DNA of 20,546 nucleotides from positions 1 to 20,546 of the IMG/VR virus record IMGVR_UViG_3300044839_000035; one strand, given 5' to 3'. The position numbers and the translations under genes were made by a program. Positions 3,574-20,546 of this stretch are shown here, one piece after another. The stretch is from a virus. Under the pieces are notes generated by a model that saw only the letters and a list, made by a program, of their open reading frames with translations, had not been told where the DNA came from and ran no database searches. The first letter of the stretch is position 1. Every line of letters begins with the position of its first letter.

Positions 3574-4076
3574 TGCCGTTCGTCACGTCGATGCCGCTCG
3601 AGGACATGGTCGATGAGCACGCGGCTCCGCGCGCGTGCAGGCGCATTGCGGATGCGTTCGCGGACAGGCTGGTGGAGAACACGCGCCGCAATACGCCGGT
3701 TGACACGTCCCCGTTTCGCGACAAGCCCGGCCGGCCACGCGGCACGGCACGGGCGTCTGTGCAGCGCACCGGTGTGGAGCTGCGCGGCCGCGACCGCTAC
3801 GAGATTCGGGCATTCAGCGACGACCCAGTGTTTCCGTTCATCGAGTGGACCACTAAGCCGCACTGGATTCGTCCGCGGCAAGAACGCGGGCCCGGCGCGC
3901 GGCTGCGGTTCCCCAATCCCAAGACGGGTGATCCGATCTTCGCGCGCGCGGTCCATCATCCAGGAACGCAAGGGCAACACAGCTTTGCGATTGGCGCCCT
4001 TCTGACCGAAGCTGAACTCGGGGAAATCGCGGCGCCGATCATGATGCGGTTCGGCCGGGACTTGGTCTCGCGATGA
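3573..4076 (+). CDS. HK97 gp10-like neck / minor tail protein
   Basis: A 167-aa protein starting at ATG 3573 within a TGATG overlap. The N-terminal helix (about residues 15-45) ends in 'NTRRNTPVDTSPF'. That is followed by the hallmark segment of the HK97-gp10 family: a 'FIEWTTKPHWIRP' strand-loop (residues 89-101), then 'LRF', then an 'HHPGTQGQHSF' turn (about 128-138). Family members (XkdI-like) act at the head-tail junction or tail completion. The stop overlaps the ATG of the HNH gene (ATGA at 4073-4076). Without the HNH gene the next gene would be the tail terminator, the usual neighbour. Confidence 0.85.
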   Translation: MPFVTSMPLEDMVDEHAAPRACRRIADAFADRLVENTRRNTPVDTSPFRDKPGRPRGTARASVQRTGVELRGRDRYEIRAFSDDPVFPFIEWTTKPHWIRPRQERGPGARLRFPNPKTGDPIFARAVHHPGTQGQHSFAIGALLTEAELGEIAAPIMMRFGRDLVSR

Positions 4077-4708
4077 GTCATCAGCTTCGACGTGGCCTGA
4101 CACCGTTGTGTGCCTGCGGCCAAGACGACCCGGCTGAGTTCTACGCCGGACAGAAGTCGCGATGCAAGGCATGCGTCCGCGCGCGCTCGCAAGCGAATCG
4201 CCACGCCAACTTGGAGGTTGTACGTCGACGCGAGCAGCGATACGCAAGGACTCATCCCGAAGTCAATCGGAGGGCGGTGCGCCGTCGCAACAACCGCGAG
4301 AAGGCGGCGCGGGCGCCCTTCCTTCGATCGAGGCAGACCGCCGAACAGACTCGTGCGCGCCGACAGACGTGGAAGGCCAAGAACCGCGAGAAGTTGCGCG
4401 CACAGGAGCGCGCTCGGTACCGGCGCAATCGTGCGAAGGCGAGAGCCAAGGAAAGACGTCGCCGCGACTTCCGCACTATCGGGAGAGATCCCGAGTGTCA
4501 GGACTACGCAGCGCATCTTCGTTACGACCCGTGCTCATACTGTGGTGGCACAGCAGGCGCACTCGACCACATTGTCCCGGTCGTCACGGGGGGCGGCGAC
4601 AACTGGGAGAACGTGACCGCGGCGTGCACAGTGTGCAACTCGCGGAAGGGAGCACAACTCCTACTGCTGGCGATGCTTGGCCGCAGGCTCATGAGGAGGC
4701 CGGCGTGA
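4073..4708 (+). CDS. HNH endonuclease inserted in the tail operon
   Basis: A 211-aa protein starting at ATG 4073, overlapping the previous stop (ATGA) and with its own TGA overlapping the GTG of the next gene (GTGA, 4705-4708). The N-terminus has Cys residues C13, C15, C31 and C34, a likely small zinc fold. A very Arg-rich middle (about 35-145) probably binds DNA. The C-terminal HNH nuclease has zinc ligands C154/C157 and C185/C188, the catalytic D165-H166 pair ('LDHIVP'), N180 in 'NWENVTAAC' and N189 in 'CNSRKG'. It is probably a free-standing homing endonuclease. Codon use differs from its neighbours: more A/T-ending codons (AGT, CAT, CTT, CGA, CAA, TTG) appear from the first codons on, which suggests recent acquisition. 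Confidence 0.93.
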   Translation: MSHQLRRGLTPLCACGQDDPAEFYAGQKSRCKACVRARSQANRHANLEVVRRREQRYARTHPEVNRRAVRRRNNREKAARAPFLRSRQTAEQTRARRQTWKAKNREKLRAQERARYRRNRAKARAKERRRRDFRTIGRDPECQDYAAHLRYDPCSYCGGTAGALDHIVPVVTGGGDNWENVTAACTVCNSRKGAQLLLLAMLGRRLMRRPA

Positions 4709-5927: not shown

Positions 5928-7412
5928 ATGTCGGGCATCTTCACGAAGGCGTCGCGTCCTCCGCTCGCGGGCAGCTACTTCGACTGGGAGGGCGAGCAGG
6001 TCGCGACCGTTCCCCCGTCGTTCGGATCGGTTGTTGCGATCCCGGCGACGTCGGACTGGGGTCCGATCCGCACCGCGATCCTCTACCCCAACTTCGAGGC
6101 GTACCGCCAGGTCTTCGGGGACACCGACACGCCGCTGCATCGCGCGGTGTACGGAGCGTTCAAGGGCGAAGGTCGCCCCGGTCACGGCGGTGCCGGCGGC
6201 GTCTTGGTGTTCCGCCAGGGCGTGTCGGGCACGTCGGCCGCGGCCGTCAAGGCGCTGAACAACACGACCCCGGCGGTCGCGTTGACGCTGACGGCGAAGT
6301 ACCACGGCACGCGGGCGAACGCGCTGCGGATCACGACGCAGGCCAGCGCGATTGCGGGTAAGACCGATCTGATCATTCTCGACGGCACGCGCGTGGACGA
6401 GACGTACACGTTCGCGAACACCGACATCACCGCGGCCGCGGCGGCGATCAACGCGGGGTCGAAGTGGTTCACCGCCGTCGCGAACATCACCGGCGTCGCG
6501 CTGGCGCTCGTGTCGGCCTCTGCGGTCGCCGGCGGCAACGACGGTGCGGTCCTGACCGGCGCCGAGTGGGTCCAGGCCCAAGACGCGTTCGACGCGCAGC
6601 GCTGGGGAGTCATTGCCGCCTACGGCCTGACCGATCCGACCATTCGCGCCGCGTTCGTCGCGTGGATCGTCGCCCGTAACAACATCGGCGCACGCGCACT
6701 CGCCGTCATCGGCGGAGCCGCCGCCGAGGACAACGCGACGGCCAACGCCAGGTCGGTCGCGATCAACGACTGGGACGTCGTCAACCTCGGGCAGGGCACG
6801 CTCCATCTCGACGACCTCGCGGTCGATGCTTCGACCGCCGAATTCACCGCCCGGGCGGCTGGCTCGATCGCCAACCGTGGTGAGAGCCGCGACCTGATCT
6901 ACGCGCGCTTCGCGGACGTCTCGCAAGCCGCCGGGGTCGCGATGCCGACGCTGGCCGAGCAGGCGACGGCACTGGCCGCCGGCACGACGGTGTTCTGCAA
7001 GGACACCAACGCCGACGCCCCGGTGTTCATCAAGGAGGGCGTCACGACGTACGCGAACGATTCGCAGTCGCCCGTCGTCGGCGGGGTCAAGACGCACGAC
7101 GTCGCGCATTACAAGCGGATCAAGAACCTGCGGATCCAGCACGCGATCGAGCTTGCCGCTGACGACTGGTTCACGACCGGTGAGGTCGCCGGCGCGCTGC
7201 CGGTCAACGACCGCATCCGCGCGCTGGCGCTCGGGTTCGTCAAGGGCCTCTACCAGCAGCGTGAGGACGCCGAGATCGTGCAGCACGGCTGGACCGTTGT
7301 GCTCGACCAGGACCCGCCGCCCGACGACGACCAGGACTTCATTCAGTACCGCCACGGCTTCCATCCGACGCGGTCGCTGAGGCAAATGTTTCACACTGCG
7401 CGCATGGGCTAG
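5928..7412 (+). CDS. Contractile tail sheath protein
   Basis: A 494-aa protein starting at ATG 5928. It polymerises around the tail tube and contracts to drive the tube into the cell. The N-terminus has the sheath-like opening 'GSYFDWE ... VATVPPSFGSVVAIPATSDWGP', followed by a variable domain (about residues 110-195) of Ala/Thr-rich beta strands. A conserved core follows, and the C-terminal sheath domain has 'NDRIRALALGFVKGLYQQRED' (about 424-444) and 'IQYRHGFHPTRSLRQM' near the end. Length and layout fit gp18/XkdK-type sheaths. It is followed by the tube gene after 15 bases with an AGAGGAGA ribosome binding site (7411-7418). It is the clearest evidence that the phage is a myovirus. Confidence 0.93.
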   Translation: MSGIFTKASRPPLAGSYFDWEGEQVATVPPSFGSVVAIPATSDWGPIRTAILYPNFEAYRQVFGDTDTPLHRAVYGAFKGEGRPGHGGAGGVLVFRQGVSGTSAAAVKALNNTTPAVALTLTAKYHGTRANALRITTQASAIAGKTDLIILDGTRVDETYTFANTDITAAAAAINAGSKWFTAVANITGVALALVSASAVAGGNDGAVLTGAEWVQAQDAFDAQRWGVIAAYGLTDPTIRAAFVAWIVARNNIGARALAVIGGAAAEDNATANARSVAINDWDVVNLGQGTLHLDDLAVDASTAEFTARAAGSIANRGESRDLIYARFADVSQAAGVAMPTLAEQATALAAGTTVFCKDTNADAPVFIKEGVTTYANDSQSPVVGGVKTHDVAHYKRIKNLRIQHAIELAADDWFTTGEVAGALPVNDRIRALALGFVKGLYQQREDAEIVQHGWTVVLDQDPPPDDDQDFIQYRHGFHPTRSLRQMFHTARMG

Positions 7413-7427
7413 AGGAGACGATCGACC

Positions 7428-7982
7428 ATGGATACCAACGAGGGCGCATATCGCATCTCAGGTCGATTTGGCGAGGGGTTCTACCTCGATCCGACCGGCC
7501 GCCGGCCTCCGTTGAAGATCATGGAGGCGACCGCGATCACGTTCACGAAGGAAATCGGGATCACCGACGTGCCGCTGTCGGGCAACCGCACCGGCTCCAA
7601 GGACGGTGGCGAGCAGCCCGGGTCCGGGACGATGACGCTGCAGAAGATCGACCAGTTCTTCGAGAACATCGTCTACGAGGCGCTGAACCAGAACCTTGCG
7701 GCGCGTCGTGCTGCCAGGGACGCGGGGCAGCGCATCAGCCGCACGTTCACGCTCCAGGTGTGGGAGGACGACCCCGAGGCGTTGGGCGCGATCGGGAACC
7801 AGCTCGACGGCGTGCGTCTGTCGCGCTACGAGGGCGGCTTCAACTTCGGGGACGAGATCACGTCGCGCGAGCACGCGTTCCGCTACGAGCGCGTGACGAA
7901 GATCAAGGCGTTCGAGCGGATCGGCAACCAGACCGATCCGACGACCGGTCTCCCGGCGATCCGGTACACCGACTCGCTGTAG
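7428..7982 (+). CDS. Tail tube protein
   Basis: A 184-aa protein starting at ATG 7428 with AGAGGAGA at 7411-7418. It builds the inner tube through which DNA passes. The size (tube proteins of the XkdM/gp19 type are about 140-185 aa), beta-rich composition and position directly after the sheath gene support the call. The segments 'IMEATAITFTKEIGITDVPLSG' (about residues 32-53) and 'GEQPGSGTMTLQKIDQFF' are typical of a tube strand region that begins with a short linker loop. No unusual feature was seen. Confidence 0.88.
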   Translation: MDTNEGAYRISGRFGEGFYLDPTGRRPPLKIMEATAITFTKEIGITDVPLSGNRTGSKDGGEQPGSGTMTLQKIDQFFENIVYEALNQNLAARRAARDAGQRISRTFTLQVWEDDPEALGAIGNQLDGVRLSRYEGGFNFGDEITSREHAFRYERVTKIKAFERIGNQTDPTTGLPAIRYTDSL

Positions 7983-7984
7983 TC

Positions 7985-8401
7985 GTGTCGCGCCTCGTGG
8001 ATCACGAAGCGCTGCTGCTTGATCTGCGTGGCGAGCTGGCGGCCCGCGAGTCGTGGGGCCGCAGCCAGATCCTCGTGCTGCTGTCCGAGCTCGAGCAGCG
8101 CCATCGCATCGACGAGTCCGACGAGGCCGCTGTGTTGCGGCGCTTTGGCTCGCACCTGACAGACACGTTCTTCGGCCTCGTGCCGAGACTTGCGACCACC
8201 GACCCGCTCTCTGTCGACGACCCCGCTGGGGCGTCGGTGGCGATGGATGGTGGCGCGCCAACCGATCAACAGACGGAAGGAGCAGCATGCCTGCCACCAC
8301 AGAAGACCCCGCCATCCCCGGCACCGATGGACCGACCGGCCTCCCGCTCGGGCAGCGCGACTCGGGTGCGCCACCAGCGCCGCGTTCCGGCGACGAGGTA
8401 A
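7985..8401 (+). CDS. Small protein between tube and chaperone genes, unknown function
   Basis: The ORF starts at GTG 7985, two bases after the tube stop codon, and encodes 138 aa. Residues 1-60 are helical and charged (DHEALLLDLRGELAARESWG, SELEQRHRIDESDEAAVLRRFG). Codon use is typical up to about base 8290. The last ~38 residues overlap the next gene by 115 bases and read like an out-of-frame shadow rich in Pro/Ser/Arg. The protein is probably real, but its C-terminus may be an accident of high GC. No ribosome binding site is evident, so translation would rely on coupling to the tube gene. No family is recognised. Confidence 0.65.
   Translation: MSRLVDHEALLLDLRGELAARESWGRSQILVLLSELEQRHRIDESDEAAVLRRFGSHLTDTFFGLVPRLATTDPLSVDDPAGASVAMDGGAPTDQQTEGAACLPPQKTPPSPAPMDRPASRSGSATRVRHQRRVPATR
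8277..8282 (+). promoter_or_regulatory. Ribosome binding site that sets the chaperone start
   Basis: AAGGAG lies four bases before ATG 8287. It fixes the start of the tail assembly chaperone there rather than at the upstream in-frame ATG 8053, which lies under another gene. Confidence 0.65.
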
Positions 8402-8889
8402 TCGCGGCCGCCGCGCGCGGCGACTCGCTGTCGGCCGGCGAGCACCACGACCTGCTCGCCTACTACCTCGCGAACGGTGAGCTGCCCAACGCCGACGAGG
8501 CTGTCCCGGTCGAGTTCACCGTCGGCCGTGGCGACAAGGCACGCAAGGACGTGTGGCACATCAAGAAGATCCGCTGGGAGGACTGGCAGGACGCTCGCGA
8601 GCGCGCCACGAACAAGAAGAGCGGGGTGTTCGACCCGTTCGTTGCGGCGAGCTGGAACGTCGCGAGAGCGCTCGTAGAGCCGAAGCTCGGGCCGAGCCTG
8701 GTCGAGCTTCAGCAGGCCGATCCGGACAACGCGCCGTCGGATGCGGCGGCGCTGCTGCGGCGGATGTTCAGCACGGAGTCCGGGGTGCTGCTGGAACTCA
8801 GCGGTGAGGTGTTGCGGCTGTCGAAGCTGCAGGACGACAACGAGTCGGTGCGGGTGTTGGACGAGGAGGTCGACGCGGGAAAGGCCTGA
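8287..8889 (+). CDS. Tail assembly chaperone, short (unshifted) form
   Basis: A 200-aa protein starting at ATG 8287 and ending at TGA 8887-8889. By position (after tube, before tape measure) and by the frameshift signal at its end, it is the G-type or XkdN-type tail assembly chaperone. Such proteins bind the tape measure and guide tube polymerisation but are absent from the virion. Residues 1-38 are a Pro/Gly-rich linker; the folded part (about 40-195) contains 'VEFTVGRGDKARKDVWHIKKIRWEDWQDARE' and a C-terminal coiled or helical stretch ending 'VDAGKA'. A fraction of ribosomes is expected to shift frame at codons 198-199 to make the longer form. Confidence 0.85.
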   Translation: MPATTEDPAIPGTDGPTGLPLGQRDSGAPPAPRSGDEVIAAAARGDSLSAGEHHDLLAYYLANGELPNADEAVPVEFTVGRGDKARKDVWHIKKIRWEDWQDARERATNKKSGVFDPFVAASWNVARALVEPKLGPSLVELQQADPDNAPSDAAALLRRMFSTESGVLLELSGEVLRLSKLQDDNESVRVLDEEVDAGKA

Positions 8890-9131
8890 TCCTCGCCGGC
8901 GGTGAAGCGTGGCTTGTCTGGTGCGCGTGGCGGTACGGCGGTGAGGATCCTTGGCAGCTCTACAACGTCCTGGACGAGAACTACCGGCCGCTCACCGCCC
9001 CGGACGACCCGGCGGTGAGGCCTCTGTACCCGAGCAGGTACCGCGCATGGATGTACGCCTGCGCGAAGGTCGCAGCGATACTCGACGGGAAGATGAAAGT
9101 GAACAAAGGTCGCACAAGGAAGGACCGATAG
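8287..9131 (+). CDS. Tail assembly chaperone, long GT form by -1 frameshift
   Basis: Joined product 8287..8883 plus 8883..9131, about 281 aa. The zero-frame codons at the end are GCG GGA AAG GCC TGA, which contain the heptamer G-GGA-AAG (8877-8883), the same slippery sequence as in lambda G/GT. A shift back by one base reads on as GGC CTG ATC CTC and gives an 82-aa extension ending at TAG 9129-9131. The extension has good coding character (GGEAWLVWCAWRYGGEDPWQ..., then YPSRYRAWMYACAKVAAIL and a basic tail) but no suitable start codon of its own at its beginning. The extension fills the otherwise empty space before the tape measure gene. In known phages the shifted domain contacts tube subunits; that role here is inferred. 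Confidence 0.88.
8877..8883 (+). promoter_or_regulatory. Programmed -1 frameshift slippery heptamer GGGAAAG
   Basis: The seven bases GGGAAAG are placed in the zero frame as G GGA AAG, i.e. the X XXY YYZ form that allows both tRNAs to re-pair after slipping back one base (to GGG AAA). The zero-frame stop TGA follows one codon later. Confidence 0.88.
8888..8949 (+). promoter_or_regulatory. Frameshift-stimulating stem-loop downstream of the slippery site
   Basis: Bases 8888-8898 (GATCCTCGCCG) pair with 8939-8949 (CGGTGAGGATC) to form 11 continuous base pairs with one G-U. The stem begins four bases after the slippery heptamer and closes a 40-base loop. This is where a stimulatory stem or pseudoknot is expected. 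Further pairing inside the loop or with downstream bases was not resolved. Confidence 0.7.
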
Positions 9132-9134
9132 AGC

Positions 9135-12100
9135 GTGCCCGCCGCGACCGTTGACAGCGCGTTCGTCCTCCTAGATCGAGCGTCGGGCCCGATCCGCAAG
9201 ATCCGCCGCGAGCTGCGCGGCATGCAGCGCGACGCCGAGGGTGCGGCCGCTGCGATGGATCAGGTGTCGGGGCCGCGTTCGGCGCGGAAGTTGGAGACGC
9301 TGGCCGGCGAGACCCGCCAGGTGCGCCAGGAGACTTCCAGGGCCGGGACAGCGATGTCGTCGACCGAGCGTGACATGCATCGGCTCGAGCGGCGCACGAC
9401 GTCGCTGACGCGGGAGACGCGCCGCGCGAAGATCGAGTGGGGCGGTCTGTCGAAGGTGCTGATGATGTTGAAGTGGCCCGGGATCATTGCCGGCGTCGGC
9501 GGGTTGACACAGGCGTTGGGGGGGCTGGCGGGTGGTGCGGTTGCGCTGATCCCGAACCTGCTCAACGTCGGTGGTGCTGCTGCGTCGATGGGAACGATGC
9601 TGGTCGGCGCCGGTCTTGCGGTGGGGACGTTCAAACTTGCGACGAAGGGTCTCGACAAAGCTCTCGCGGGGAACAAGAAGGCGCTTGCGGCGCTGACGCC
9701 GGAGGGCCGGGCGTTCGTACAGATCATGCGCGAGATGCGTCCCGAGATCCAGCGGACGCGACGGGTGGCGCAGCAGGGGCTCTTCCCGGGGCTGGGGGCG
9801 CTGCTGGGTGACCTGCGCAGCCAGGCGCCGCAGATCCGCCAGATCGTTCGTCAGACCGCTGGTGACCTTGGCGGGTTGGCGCGGTTCGGTGGCCAGCAGA
9901 TCAGCTCGCCGGGGTTCATGCGCGAGCTCATCCAACTCTCTGACCAGGGCGGCCGAGCCCTCGGTGCCGCAGCGCGGTCGGCGTTCTACTTCGCCAGGGC
10001 GGCCGAGCACATCATGGTCGCGGCCGGCCCGTTGACGGACTGGCTGGGCAACACGGTCGAGGGATGGGGCAAGACCGCGGAGCGCCAGGCCAAGGTCGGG
10101 ATGGAGACCGGCAAGCTCGACCGCTACTTCGTGCGGGTGCGTCACACGCTGACGACGCTGTTCGATGTCGGCAAGCACACGTGGGGCGCGATCCACGGGC
10201 TGCTCAAGGCGGCGACGGGCCAGAGCGACAGCTTGTGGGGGTCGATCGACAAGGGTGCGCGGCGGTGGGATCAGTGGTCAAACAGCTTCGTCGGCCAGAA
10301 CCGGATGCGCCGGTGGTTCGATGACGTGCGCCCGACGTTGGATGCGACGGTCGGGCTGTTCGGTGACTTGGCGAAGGCGATCGGCCATCTGTCGTCGGGG
10401 CCGGAGGGCGCGCAGATGCTCGAGAGTCTGCGCAAGGCCGTCCCGGCGCTCGGGCATGGCATGCAGTCGTTGTTGTCGAGCTTTGGGCCGGCGGCGATCG
10501 ACGCGCTCGCGAGCGGCGCGCAGTTGCTCGGCACGTTGGCCGGGCACGCCGGTCCGCTCACCTTGGTTGCGGTCGCGGTGGGCACGACGGCGAAGGCGAT
10601 CAACTCGCTGATCGATGCGCTCGGGCCGCTGGGTCCGCAGCTCGCGGCGTTCGCGTCGACCGCGTTCGTGCTCAAGCGTCTCGGCATTCTCGGCGGTGGA
10701 GGTGGTGGCGGGGGCGCCGGCGGTGGCGGGATGATGCCGCTGATCTTGCCGGGTGGCCGTGGCGGTGCGGGTGCGGCGCGTGGCGGGATGACCGCGGGCG
10801 AGAGTGCGCTGCTGGGCGCCGGCGGTGGTGCGGCCGCGAGCCGACTCGCGATGATGCGCGGCGCGATCGGCGGAGCGCCAGGCTACCTGCGCGGCACCTA
10901 CGGGCTGGCGCGCGGGTTCGGGTACGGACGCGCGGCGTCGGCGGCTGCGGCGGGTGGCGGACTGCTGGGGCTCGGTAGCGAGGCGTCGATGGCGTCACGC
11001 GGCTTGGGGGCCGCGGGCAAGTTCTTCTGGCCGTTGGCGTTGGGTAGCGGCATCCTCGGGGCGCTGGGGACCCAAGGCGGGCCGCTGGCGAAGGCCCAAG
11101 GCGGTCTCAGCGCCGTCACGCTGGGGCTGGTGCCCCGTCCGGTCAGCGCGGAGGAGAAGCGCACCGGAGGGGGCGCGTTCGCGTCCACGTATCTACAACG
11201 CCTCCAGGAACTCGATCAGCGCTTCCCGGGGCGCACGACGGTCGCTGGTCAGCAGCGGACCGTCGGTCGGCTCCAGCACGAGATCCAGACGCTCCCAGGC
11301 AACGATGCGTTCAACCAGAACCAGAAGGACCTGCACCGGGCGACGAACCTGTTGCGCGACGAGCTGTCGCGCCGGCGCCGACTGCTGCTCGAATCTCAGC
11401 GCCAGACGGTCGATGACCTCAACGCAAAGTCGACCGCGCACGGGCAGGCGATGGCCACTGACTTCGCGCAGGCGTTCGACATCCGTGCGCACGGACCGGC
11501 CGGTCCGATCGTGGCGATGCGTAAGACCGTTGACGGAGTGCTGGCCGAGCAGCGTCGTTTGCCGGGGGCTGGGGCGAGGGTGCTCGATGAAGCGTCGCTG
11601 TCGTGGATTGCTGCGGCTGCGCAACACAATCCCGCGCTCAAGAAGGAGTACGAGCGCCTTGTTCACGGGATCGAAGACAAGTTCAGCGCACTGGGCAAGC
11701 ACGTCGCAGTAGTGAATGGGCAGATCCTCGTGGGGTCGCGGTCGGAGTGGCACAACATCCGGCTGGCGATGGTGACGAACACGGAGAAGGCGCGCGAGGA
11801 AGTCAGCAAGGACTTCACGGCGATCCAGCAGCAGGCAGTCGGGGCGCTGACGGCAATGGGGTTTTCGCCGGCGGCCGCACGGCAGCTCGTGCAGAACCTT
11901 GAGAGCGGCGGCACTGGCGGCGCAGCGGCCGCGCAAACGCTCACCCCGGGCAACGCGCCGAAAGCGGCCGCCCCCGGCGGGAAAGGCGCGGGCTCAGGGC
12001 TCGTTGGGACCGGCAAGCCGCGCGCGACAGGCGGCCGCCTCGCTGGTCAAGGCCTCCAGGACAAGATTCCGATGATCGACGGCGGGCTCGCGGCGCCGGG

Positions 12101-13577
12101 CGAGCTCGTCGTCAACCGCCACAGCGAACGCGACGACGATCGTGAGAAGGCTTTGGCGAACCGGCTGCTGGCGTTCGCTGGTGTGAACTTCCGGTTGCCG
12201 ACGATCGCGCAGCGCGTCACCGGCGAGCACCGTAAGCACTCCGCCCCGATCGAGCAGGCCAGCCGCGATGGTTGTCACGGCATGGCGACGGGCACGCGCA
12301 TCGGGTCCGGGCTGGCCGGGGTCGCCGCCGGCGCGTCGGGTGGGTACGGCGGGCCGTTTGGGTCGGGTGACGGGTTCATCCCGGTGACGGCGCTGGCGAA
12401 GGACAAGTTCGGGTTGACGGCGACGGCTGGCCGCACGAACCACAACACGAACACGATCTACGGCAGCGTGTCTGACCACTCGTGGGGCGGGGCGGTCGAC
12501 TACAGCAACGCCGGCAGCCCGACGCCGCAGATGGATGCGTGGTCGAAGTTCTGGGTCGGGCACGTGCTGTCGGGCTCGGCGCTGGGGCCGTCGCCGATCA
12601 AGCAGATGCTCTACCGCACGCTGATCGGCGGCAACCACTTCAACCACGTGCACACCGCGCTGTTGCGGGAGTTTGCGTTCAGCGCCCCCAAGATGTCGGC
12701 GATCATCAGCGCCAAGACGCATGGGGCGCCGCTGAACCTGTCCGGGTCGGCTGCCGTCACACCGGCCGCGGCGCGGTCGATCGCCGCACTCAAGGCCCCA
12801 ACGTCCGGGCTGAGTGGTGTGCCCGGGGCGTTGTCGCGGCGTGCAGGGCAGATATACGCGGCCGGGTTGACACAGAAGATCAACGCGCGCCTCGGCGCCG
12901 GCACCACCACCACGGGTGGAGGGCTTGGCGGACCGGGTGGCGGCAAGACCGTCGGTGCGTCGACGTTCGGCGGTCCCGGCGACCCCGGCACCGGCTCGAC
13001 TGGCTATCGCGGCGACAACCTCTACCAGAAGCCCGATTCGTTCGCTGAGCTGAAGATGGGCACGGCGCTTGGTGGCCTGCCGTACATGGCGGGGATGAAG
13101 GTCACCGGCCCGAAGGGCAGCAAGACGCTGTACAAGCGTGACATCGGCCTCGGCGGCGGACCGGTGTCGGGGCACAGCCGTGACATCGACTTGTGGTTCC
13201 AGGCCGCGAACGATCTTGGTGTCAGCGGCCTGGGGTTGGTGAAGGTCGAACCCGCCAAGGCGCGCGGCGGCCGAGTCGGTCGCGGCCCGGTCTGGGGTGG
13301 GTGGCATGGCAAGGGCACCGACACGGTGGTTCACCGTCCGACGGTGTTCGGTGCGGGGGAGAACGGTCCGGAGCGCGTGAACATCACCCCCGTCGGCACG
13401 AGTGGCGCCGGTGACATGACCGTGCACATTCACCCTGGCGCGATCAAGGTCGAAGGGCATGCGAACAACAGCACGCTTGAGAAGGCTGTGGCCAAGCATG
13501 TCGAAGCGTTCGCGAAGGCAGTCCAGGATGAGATCGCCTCCGGCAGCGAGTCGGATGAGGCTGCGGTGATGGCGTGA
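9135..13577 (+). CDS. Tape measure protein with two putative peptidoglycan-active domains
   Basis: A 1480-aa protein starting at GTG 9135, with an AAGGAAGGA purine tract at 9116-9124. It sets tail length and is ejected ahead of the DNA. Residues about 1-105 are coiled coil; 107-170 are strongly hydrophobic (GIIAGVGGLTQALGG ... MLVGAGLAVG), the usual membrane-interacting part. A poly-Gly segment is at 520-532 and another coiled coil at about 690-785. Residues about 1060-1185 carry an M15/VanY-like pattern: SDHSWGGAVD with H1115 and D1122, and NHFNHVH with H1173. Residues about 1303-1373 resemble a double-psi beta-barrel (RlpA-like): 'LPYMAGMKVTGPKGSKTLYKRD' then 'RDIDLWFQAANDLGV'. Two 'GELVVNR' / 'GPERVNI' type turns (near 991 and 1415) are typical of tape measure proteins. 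Its stop overlaps the next GTG. Confidence 0.93.
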   Translation: MPAATVDSAFVLLDRASGPIRKIRRELRGMQRDAEGAAAAMDQVSGPRSARKLETLAGETRQVRQETSRAGTAMSSTERDMHRLERRTTSLTRETRRAKIEWGGLSKVLMMLKWPGIIAGVGGLTQALGGLAGGAVALIPNLLNVGGAAASMGTMLVGAGLAVGTFKLATKGLDKALAGNKKALAALTPEGRAFVQIMREMRPEIQRTRRVAQQGLFPGLGALLGDLRSQAPQIRQIVRQTAGDLGGLARFGGQQISSPGFMRELIQLSDQGGRALGAAARSAFYFARAAEHIMVAAGPLTDWLGNTVEGWGKTAERQAKVGMETGKLDRYFVRVRHTLTTLFDVGKHTWGAIHGLLKAATGQSDSLWGSIDKGARRWDQWSNSFVGQNRMRRWFDDVRPTLDATVGLFGDLAKAIGHLSSGPEGAQMLESLRKAVPALGHGMQSLLSSFGPAAIDALASGAQLLGTLAGHAGPLTLVAVAVGTTAKAINSLIDALGPLGPQLAAFASTAFVLKRLGILGGGGGGGGAGGGGMMPLILPGGRGGAGAARGGMTAGESALLGAGGGAAASRLAMMRGAIGGAPGYLRGTYGLARGFGYGRAASAAAAGGGLLGLGSEASMASRGLGAAGKFFWPLALGSGILGALGTQGGPLAKAQGGLSAVTLGLVPRPVSAEEKRTGGGAFASTYLQRLQELDQRFPGRTTVAGQQRTVGRLQHEIQTLPGNDAFNQNQKDLHRATNLLRDELSRRRRLLLESQRQTVDDLNAKSTAHGQAMATDFAQAFDIRAHGPAGPIVAMRKTVDGVLAEQRRLPGAGARVLDEASLSWIAAAAQHNPALKKEYERLVHGIEDKFSALGKHVAVVNGQILVGSRSEWHNIRLAMVTNTEKAREEVSKDFTAIQQQAVGALTAMGFSPAAARQLVQNLESGGTGGAAAAQTLTPGNAPKAAAPGGKGAGSGLVGTGKPRATGGRLAGQGLQDKIPMIDGGLAAPGELVVNRHSERDDDREKALANRLLAFAGVNFRLPTIAQRVTGEHRKHSAPIEQASRDGCHGMATGTRIGSGLAGVAAGASGGYGGPFGSGDGFIPVTALAKDKFGLTATAGRTNHNTNTIYGSVSDHSWGGAVDYSNAGSPTPQMDAWSKFWVGHVLSGSALGPSPIKQMLYRTLIGGNHFNHVHTALLREFAFSAPKMSAIISAKTHGAPLNLSGSAAVTPAAARSIAALKAPTSGLSGVPGALSRRAGQIYAAGLTQKINARLGAGTTTTGGGLGGPGGGKTVGASTFGGPGDPGTGSTGYRGDNLYQKPDSFAELKMGTALGGLPYMAGMKVTGPKGSKTLYKRDIGLGGGPVSGHSRDIDLWFQAANDLGVSGLGLVKVEPAKARGGRVGRGPVWGGWHGKGTDTVVHRPTVFGAGENGPERVNITPVGTSGAGDMTVHIHPGAIKVEGHANNSTLEKAVAKHVEAFAKAVQDEIASGSESDEAAVMA
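10692..10730 (+). repeat. G-rich low-complexity run encoding poly-glycine
   Basis: A 39-base run made almost only of G with interspersed C, T and A (GGCGGTGGAGGTGGTGGCGG...), encoding Gly520-Gly532 of the tape measure protein with one Ala. It probably marks a flexible joint in the protein. The G runs could also form a quadruplex in the coding strand or mRNA, but there is no evidence that they do. Confidence 0.6.
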
Positions 13578-19384: not shown

Positions 19385-19911
19385 GTCTCTCCGCGACCGC
19401 AGAGCGGATGCTGGAGACGGTGCCTGCGTACTACGACGGCGAACCGCTGATGGAGCGACTGTTCCAGGCCGGCGCGAACGAGATCGACCGCATGGACGCA
19501 CTTGTGGATCAGGTGACCGCCGAGCTGCAACCGGGCCAGGCGACCGATGCGCTGGGGCTGCTGGGGGCGTGGGAGGCAACGGAGGGGTTGCCGGTCATGC
19601 CAGTGGGCGCGACCGAGACTCAGCGCCAAGCCAAGATTAACGCCGCGTTGCAGAAGCTCGACTCCGGATCGGGTCGGGCGGCGCTGGCCACGATTCAGGC
19701 CGCGATGGGCGCCGGAGCGTTCACGGTTGATCGCGACACGCCTGTCGTGCTCGAGGACACGTTGAACATCCCGTATCTAGCGGGCACCTACAACGCGGCC
19801 GTCATCCAGGCGATCGCGCTGAAGATCTGGCCAGCACACCGCGCGCTGTTCATCAGGTATGGGGATGGGTTCATTCTTGAACTCAGCCGTCTGGACGCGG
19901 ATTCGCTCTAG
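19381..19911 (+). CDS. Baseplate/tail protein, gpI/XkdU-like (DUF2313)
   Basis: A 176-aa protein starting at ATG 19381 in an ATGA overlap. The opening 'ATAERMLETVPAYYDGEPLMERLFQAGANEIDRMD' and the following 'ALGLLGAWEATEGLPVMPVGATETQRQAKINAAL' region match the DUF2313/gpI layout, in which a helical N-terminus connects the J-type wedge to the tail fibre. The C-terminus ends in a short beta/alpha unit ('WPAHRALFIRYGDGF'). Its TAG (19909-19911) shares the palindrome CTAG with the stop codon of the minus-strand HNH gene. Confidence 0.83.
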   Translation: MSLSATAERMLETVPAYYDGEPLMERLFQAGANEIDRMDALVDQVTAELQPGQATDALGLLGAWEATEGLPVMPVGATETQRQAKINAALQKLDSGSGRAALATIQAAMGAGAFTVDRDTPVVLEDTLNIPYLAGTYNAAVIQAIALKIWPAHRALFIRYGDGFILELSRLDADSL

Positions 19912-20438
19912 GGCGTCCGCTGCGCGGTGTTACCGGGACTCGTGTATCCGGGTCGTGGGGGCAGTAGCCGTGGATCCCGAGGGCCCGTGTTGCAGTTGTG
20001 GCATAGCACGCGGAATCCTTCTGGGTAGCCGTGCTTGGCAAGCCACGAATAGATGCGGTTCGCGCCGACCTCCCGACGGTGCGCTGACCCGCCTCCATCG
20101 ATGTGGTCGAGCGCGAGGAACTCGGGATAGGCGGTGCGGCAGCATGCGCATGATGGGGGCGTCGTGTCGGAGTAGTGAGCCAGAGCGGCTGCGCGCTGCT
20201 CGCGGTATCTCCTCCGACTGTAGGCGTTGCGGGCGGCGACGTTGATGGGCTTGGCATTTCGCCGCGCAACGCTGGCCCGGTAGCGCTTCGGGTTGCGCTC
20301 ACGCCACTCCGCAATTGCTGCGTTCGCGCAGTCCTTGCAGTCGTAGGCCAGACCGTCCGGTGCGTTGCCCGAGCGATAGAAAGCCTCCGCCGATTTGGTC
20401 TCTCGGCAGGTTGAGCAGGTCTTGTGCGCCGCAGTCAT
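19908..20438 (-). CDS. HNH endonuclease on the minus strand
   Basis: A 176-aa protein if started at ATG 20438; the frame is open to an ATG at 20504 that would add 22 residues of poor quality. The N-terminus has zinc-fold Cys residues C8, C11, C34 and C37 ('TCSTCRETKSAEAFY', 'DCKDCANAA'). A basic middle (about 42-85) precedes the HNH nuclease: C97/C100, D111-H112 ('LALDHIDGGG'), the 'IYSWLAKHGYPEGFRVLCHNCN' segment with C146, C149 and N150. It has the same architecture as the HNH gene at 4073-4708 but little obvious identity outside motifs. It runs against the structural genes and probably has its own promoter. No ribosome binding site precedes ATG 20438, so a leaderless or weakly translated message is possible. 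A homing function is inferred. Confidence 0.88.
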   Translation of the reverse strand: MTAAHKTCSTCRETKSAEAFYRSGNAPDGLAYDCKDCANAAIAEWRERNPKRYRASVARRNAKPINVAARNAYSRRRYREQRAAALAHYSDTTPPSCACCRTAYPEFLALDHIDGGGSAHRREVGANRIYSWLAKHGYPEGFRVLCHNCNTGPRDPRLLPPRPGYTSPGNTAQRTP

Positions 20439-20502
20439 TGTTACTAATGGTATCGCAACACATGGACAGGAACGCGCGTCGCTCTGCGACCATTGGTCGC
20501 GC
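20439..20502. promoter_or_regulatory. Divergent intergenic spacer, locally AT-enriched
   Basis: This 64-base spacer separates the start of the minus-strand HNH gene from the start of the plus-strand gene at 20503. Bases 20436-20466 are clearly richer in A/T than the rest of the window (TTGTTACTAATGGTAT). On the minus strand a TACCAT box lies 8 bases before ATG 20438 and would place transcription start almost at the ATG. No convincing -35 was seen, so promoter activity on either strand is only a possibility. Confidence 0.3.
20486..20500 (+). promoter_or_regulatory. Perfect inverted repeat GCGACC-ATT-GGTCGC before ATG 20503
   Basis: A 6-bp perfect inverted repeat with a 3-base centre lies two bases upstream of the predicted start at 20503, where a ribosome binding site would normally be. 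It could act as a protein operator or as an RNA hairpin that affects initiation. No T tract follows, so it does not look like a terminator. Confidence 0.45.
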
Positions 20503-20546
20503 ATGCCGAAGCACGTCGACTACGCGCCGCTCGACCCGCTTCCCGC
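20503..20546 (+). CDS. Start of a downstream plus-strand gene, probably tail fibre (partial)
   Basis: ATG 20503 opens a frame that runs to the end of the window (first residues MPKHVDYAPLDPLP). Codons end mainly in G or C, as in the structural genes. A tail fibre or fibre-assembly gene is expected after the gpI-like gene, but 14 residues do not allow identification. No clear ribosome binding site is visible; AGGA at 20468-20471 is too far away unless the hairpin at 20486-20500 is folded. Confidence 0.45.
   Translation, partial: MPKHVDYAPLDPLP

Follow-up and report, generated by a model that had tools for sequence, protein, structure and literature searches.

This locus raises the question of whether the short protein encoded immediately upstream of a phage tail tape measure gene is the only product of its gene, or whether some ribosomes pass into the overlapping -1 frame and make a longer form. 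The window, meaning the whole stretch of DNA analyzed here, comprises 20,546 nt (positions 1 to 20,546 of IMG/VR virus record IMGVR_UViG_3300044839_000035). Based on the structure of the junction and on its comparison with two related contigs, L002 and L003, it is considered very probable that a contractile-tailed phage here uses programmed -1 ribosomal frameshifting to express a putatively XkdN-type tail assembly chaperone gene. The features on which the discussion relies are as follows.

5928 to 7412, plus strand: tail sheath protein (phrog_279, E 7e-41)
7428 to 7982, plus strand: tail tube protein, XkdM/DUF2001-like (PF09393, E 6e-6)
8287 to 8889, plus strand: zero-frame tail assembly chaperone, G-like and putatively XkdN-type, 200 aa, an open frame from ATG to TGA with homologues in L002 and L003
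8863 to 8870, plus strand: Shine-Dalgarno (SD)-like element GAGGAGGT, probable 5' stimulator, ending 6 nt ahead of the heptamer
8877 to 8883, plus strand: slippery heptamer G GGA AAG, one codon ahead of the zero-frame TGA
8883 to 9131, plus strand: -1 frame extension, T-like, 82 aa (GLILAGGEAW...RKDR), stop TAG 9129-9131, 60-62% identical to the L002 and L003 extensions
8888 to 8949, plus strand: hairpin with an 11-pair outer stem (8888-8898 with 8939-8949) and an inner stem, probable 3' stimulator on the basis of folding and pair counts
9135 to 13577, plus strand: tail tape measure gene, with a GTG start 3 nt past the stop of the extension (phrog_6090, E 3.8e-10; homologues in L002 and L003)

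The 3' end of the chaperone frame reads ...GTC GAC GCG GGA AAG GCC TGA, which places GGGAAAG at 8877-8883 in X_XXY_YYZ phase, and the ending G GGA AAG GCC TGA given in an earlier note on this DNA was thus read correctly. The same note had described a -1 frame that is open from the heptamer to TAG 9129-9131 over 82 codons and has no suitable start of its own, and both statements hold. The last -1-frame stop upstream of the junction is TGA 8805, and between this stop and GTG 9015 the -1 frame contains no ATG, GTG or TTG and only one CTG, at 8886.

The genes of the window are arranged in the order major capsid protein, connector genes, sheath, tube, a small ORF, chaperone, tape measure and baseplate genes, and this gene set marks the virus as a contractile-tailed phage. 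The chaperone lies between tube and tape measure, as it does in L002 and L003, and this sheath-tube-chaperone-tape measure order, together with the XkdN-like match of the L003 chaperone described below, backs the identity of the gene as a tail assembly chaperone proposed in the earlier note. The small ORF (7985-8401 in the window) belongs to no known family, is kept in L002 and L003, and in all three runs about 90-115 nt into the start of the chaperone gene, read in another frame. Two HNH/endonuclease VII-like genes, at 4073-4708 on the plus strand and at 19908-20504 on the minus strand, lie inside the structural operon and are probably homing-type insertions. L003 has GTA (L003:4319-4321) where the tape measure genes of the window and L002 begin with GTG. 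This GTA is preceded by an SD-like GAGGGGG, no ATG, GTG or TTG occurs for roughly 40 codons, and the codon is either an unusual start or the result of a base error. In the window and in L003 the tape measure gene directly follows the chaperone extension; in L002 the two are separated by an opposite-strand ORF (L002:4297-4629, minus strand) with a lipoprotein-like N-terminus (MKIAWLAIVVTVAAAGCGG).

The relative L002 was found by searching IMG/VR contigs with the extension sequence, and L003 was then found with a two-sequence alignment. Further scans of viral contigs with alignments returned only these two again, two scans of genome contigs yielded no relative, and tblastn against cultured phages and plasmids yielded no close relative. 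Identities of L002 and L003 to the window are 55-56% for the sheath, 53-57% for the zero-frame chaperone and 60-62% for the extension, so that the extension is at least as conserved as the zero frame and the sheath. The conserved block LILAGGEAW starts at the junction, upstream of any ATG, GTG or TTG start, and the conserved extension residues of the window and L003 are encoded by 28 synonymous and 18 identical codons. So many synonymous differences at conserved residues indicate that selection acts on the -1 protein; in the window and both relatives alike, the extension is open, under selection at the protein level and devoid of a start of its own. The junction of L002 is G GGA AAA GAC TGA (heptamer GGGAAAA) and that of L003 is GCA AAA AAC TGA (heptamer AAAAAAC), both in the correct phase, and all three heptamers sit 0 or 1 codon before the stop. 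The earlier note had suggested aligning relatives for conservation of the heptamer and had named relatives that keep both frames without any slippery heptamer as grounds for rejection; instead, both relatives keep a heptamer, and the junction is conserved in three genomes with three different canonical heptamers. This exchange of heptamers at one conserved junction provides strong evidence at the sequence level, which we regard as decisive, in favor of programmed -1 frameshifting.

The bare string GGGAAAG is not rare, since two copies are present in the window against 1.4 expected, and the second copy (11979), which falls in the tape measure frame, is not phased to allow slippage there. Phase-correct X_XXY_YYZ heptamers with Y = A or T number 1 in 3357 codons of seven window genes and 2 in 4910 codons of fourteen genes. 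When the last 27 codons of the chaperone gene were recoded synonymously, a phase-correct heptamer arose with P = 0.033 for the window, 0.015 for L002 and 0.003 for L003.

Neither the chaperone nor the extension of the window had a significant match in scans against Pfam, PHROGs and NCBIfam, and AlphaFold2 models built from three-sequence alignments (mean pLDDT 44 and 54) were too poor for a fold search. The L003 chaperone, in contrast to those of the window and L002, for which no such match was obtained, matches phrog_389 ("tail protein XkdN-like") with E 2e-4 over its C-terminal 115 residues; a six-frame search of the three records gave no phrog_389 match at E 0.001. Aligned with hhalign to XkdN of phiC2 and phiCD27, the profile of the window-type chaperone showed weak similarity (probability 13%, E 0.002). 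The L003 match, this weak profile similarity and the gene order suggest that the window gene relates to the XkdN chaperones of PBSX-type tails. Eighteen XkdN-type phages of Firmicutes, including Osiris, EJ-1, Abouo and phiCDKH02, were sampled, and a phase-correct A AAA AAC was found at the end of the zero frame in 17 of them, directly at the stop in 15, 3 nt before it in one and 18 nt before it in one. In these 17 phages the -1 extension continues for 48-65 codons beyond the stop and mostly opens KKLI, and the opening of the L003 extension is identical. The combination of a heptamer at the stop and a KKLI opening was defined here as a feature from the 17 sampled phages plus the fusion in EJ-1; the window group shows it as well, its heptamers lying at the stop or close to it and leading into extensions that open KKLI or similarly. 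In the eighteenth phage, EJ-1, ORF55 is an in-frame fusion: one extra A just 5' of the site relative to phage MismyG, which is nearly identical in the region compared, joins both frames into a 198-aa gene; the extra A may be a sequencing error.

Two elements flank the heptamer of the window. The SD-like element on its 5' side was overlooked in the earlier note and is an addition of the present analysis. In the window it forms the strongest anti-SD duplex (-12.3 kcal/mol); equivalents are GAAGGAGA in L002 and AGGGAGGT in L003, and the spacing of 6-9 nt before the heptamer across all three falls within the 6-17 nt rule for SD-like stimulators that was drawn from experimentally proven cases (PMC4066793). 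Equally strong anti-SD elements occur in 0.2% (window), 2.4% (L002) and 0.8% (L003) of segments of the coding background. Synonymous resampling gave P 0.75, 0.34 and 0.06, respectively, values that are weak because the encoded residues (EEV, KEI and REV) themselves favor such an element.

The hairpin on the 3' side begins four bases past the heptamer, as the earlier note had it, and the 11-bp stem described there consists of 10 Watson-Crick pairs and one G-U pair (8895-8942). It could nevertheless be incidental, with the codons for LILAGG and GGEDPW complementary by chance in a G+C-rich genome and with the heptamer and the SD-like element sufficing for slippage. This reading concerns only the stimulator and is compatible with -1 frameshifting, and we hold it to be somewhat doubtful, though of appreciable weight. 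Compensatory changes in the stem, which the earlier note had proposed to look for, are absent among the window, L002 and L003, in which 11, 10 and 9 of the 11 outer pairs are kept; the RNA downstream of the L003 heptamer folds no better than shuffles, and synonymous conservation over the hairpin in the three does not exceed the level in the sheath gene. With no compensatory change and ordinary synonymous conservation, the stem is plausible but not proven within the trio. Against an incidental stem, the 11 pairs of the window exceed synonymous recoding (P 0.0065 for the number of pairs; 0.064 for L002 and 0.069 for L003), the pairing register is the best among the slides tested, and the position agrees with the rule that a 3' stimulator structure lies 4-10 nt from the heptamer (PMC4066793). 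A 77-nt segment of the window folds at -39.4 kcal/mol (z -2.7), and only 1 of 200 shuffles was as good. Strong downstream structure is, moreover, general at XkdN sites: the RNA 3' of 20 heptamers (17 XkdN phages plus the window, L002 and L003) has a mean z of -2.4, and local controls average -0.4 (Mann-Whitney P 8e-8, which is optimistic because related phages are not fully independent). This stronger folding suggests that a downstream hairpin is a usual part of the signal in the XkdN family, and a downstream hairpin, such as the stem singled out as noteworthy in the earlier note, is common at sites of this type and no exception.

Two further explanations dispense with frameshifting altogether. 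Ribosomes terminating at the zero-frame TGA might re-initiate at CTG 8886, which overlaps this stop, yielding a free 81-aa protein and no fusion. This overlap is kept in the window, L002 and L003 (CTGATCCTC), and the CTG is preceded, at about 15 nt, by the SD-like element; however, CTG is a poor bacterial start, that spacing is long, EJ-1 presents a natural fusion of both frames, and re-initiation would leave unexplained both the three different phase-correct heptamers and the occurrence of a heptamer at the stop of 17 of the 18 XkdN phages. Coupled re-initiation is considered very improbable. Alternatively, the gene could have been split by an indel, an assembly error or decay with no programmed event, a thought prompted by the metagenomic origin of the contig and by the single base that separates a split from an intact gene. 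Two other assemblies nevertheless have the gene split at the same place, with a protein identity of about 60% and with synonymous substitutions where residues are conserved, and the split is seen again in 17 XkdN-type phages. An accidental split is the least probable of the readings considered here. A conserved junction with three heptamers and a selected -1 protein argues against both an assembly indel and a free downstream gene.

In the favored programmed -1 frameshift, the majority of ribosomes would terminate at TGA 8887-8889 and release the 200-aa chaperone. In a minority, tRNA-Gly on GGA and tRNA-Lys on AAG may move back by one base onto GGG AAA, and the slipped ribosomes would read 82 codons to TAG 9129; their product, of about 281 aa, would carry the junction GK-GLILAGGEAW.... 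The slip is probably aided by anti-SD pairing with GAGGAGGU just 5' of the heptamer and by the hairpin beginning four bases 3' of it. We infer the slippage itself, its rate, the roles of the stimulators and the functions of the two products from sequence. When stimulators are present, G_GG.A_AA.G ranks among the three most efficient heptamers in E. coli, where A_AA.A_AA.C is weak (PMC4066793); these were counted for and against frameshifting, respectively. The tRNA-Lys of the host may behave differently. By analogy with lambda, the short form may coat the tape measure protein, and tube subunits may be recruited by the longer product; a fixed ratio of the two products and the bridging from tape measure to tube are likewise carried over from lambda as presumed properties.

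The G/GT gene of lambda uses the GGGAAAG heptamer, and many tailed phages frameshift at this gene position. The window case belongs to this known kind: as in lambda, the gene lies just 5' of the tape measure gene, the -1 shift would occur near the end of the chaperone frame at GGGAAAG, and the C-terminal extension is short. In contrast to lambda, the window phage is contractile and sheath-bearing, its protein has no detectable similarity to known families, and its site lies one codon before the stop, flanked by the SD-like element and the hairpin. The lambda model assigns coating of the tape measure protein to G and recruitment of the tube subunit to GT; it has been described together with GGGAAAG in the haloarchaeal virus HCTV-5 and with mixed heptamers at the g-t junction of HCTV-1, -2 and -5 (PMC5009743). 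According to that description, these viruses resemble the present group in the mixture of heptamers at the chaperone junction, whereas they are archaeal siphoviruses. The XkdN-like (phrog_389) chaperones of Clostridioides difficile phages phiC2 and phiCD27, Brevibacillus phage Osiris and Geobacillus phage phiOH2 share with the window group the order sheath-tube-XkdN-tape measure, a heptamer at the stop (the identical A AAA AAC in L003), the KKLI opening of the L003 extension and, in most, a downstream hairpin. Unlike them, the window and L002 carry GGGAAAG and GGGAAAA in place of A AAA AAC, the extension of the window is longer (82 codons, compared with about 50-67), and its chaperone has no family match by itself.

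The SD-like element, the exchange of heptamers among relatives and the family-wide link to XkdN go beyond the earlier note. We lean, by a small degree, towards the view that a near-universal -1 signal in XkdN/PBSX chaperones, made up of A AAA AAC directly against the stop and a 3' hairpin, has been missed by annotation, and that in high-G+C phages, that of the window included, the heptamer may have drifted to GGGAAAA or GGGAAAG with an upstream SD-like element. A search of the literature turned up no description of a frameshift in XkdN or PBSX chaperones, although the survey of Xu et al. (2004) could cover it. Such a family-wide, unannotated signal would be a more useful result than the single window case. 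With standard gene calling, contractile-tailed phages and PBSX-like tail particles would each have a conserved morphogenesis gene annotated only in part. The family could also serve as a natural series, with the same junction, three heptamers and variable hairpins and SD elements, for studying how a frameshift rate persists while its signal changes. None of the 18 sampled XkdN records annotates the shift as a joined gene, and several, e.g., those of phiCDKH02, Osiris and Abouo, contain the extension only as fragments that lack its N-terminus. In two of the records the XkdN-type chaperone is labelled "portal protein", namely PP767789.1 (phiCDKH02_44) and MZ983385.1 (PVJ1_00066).
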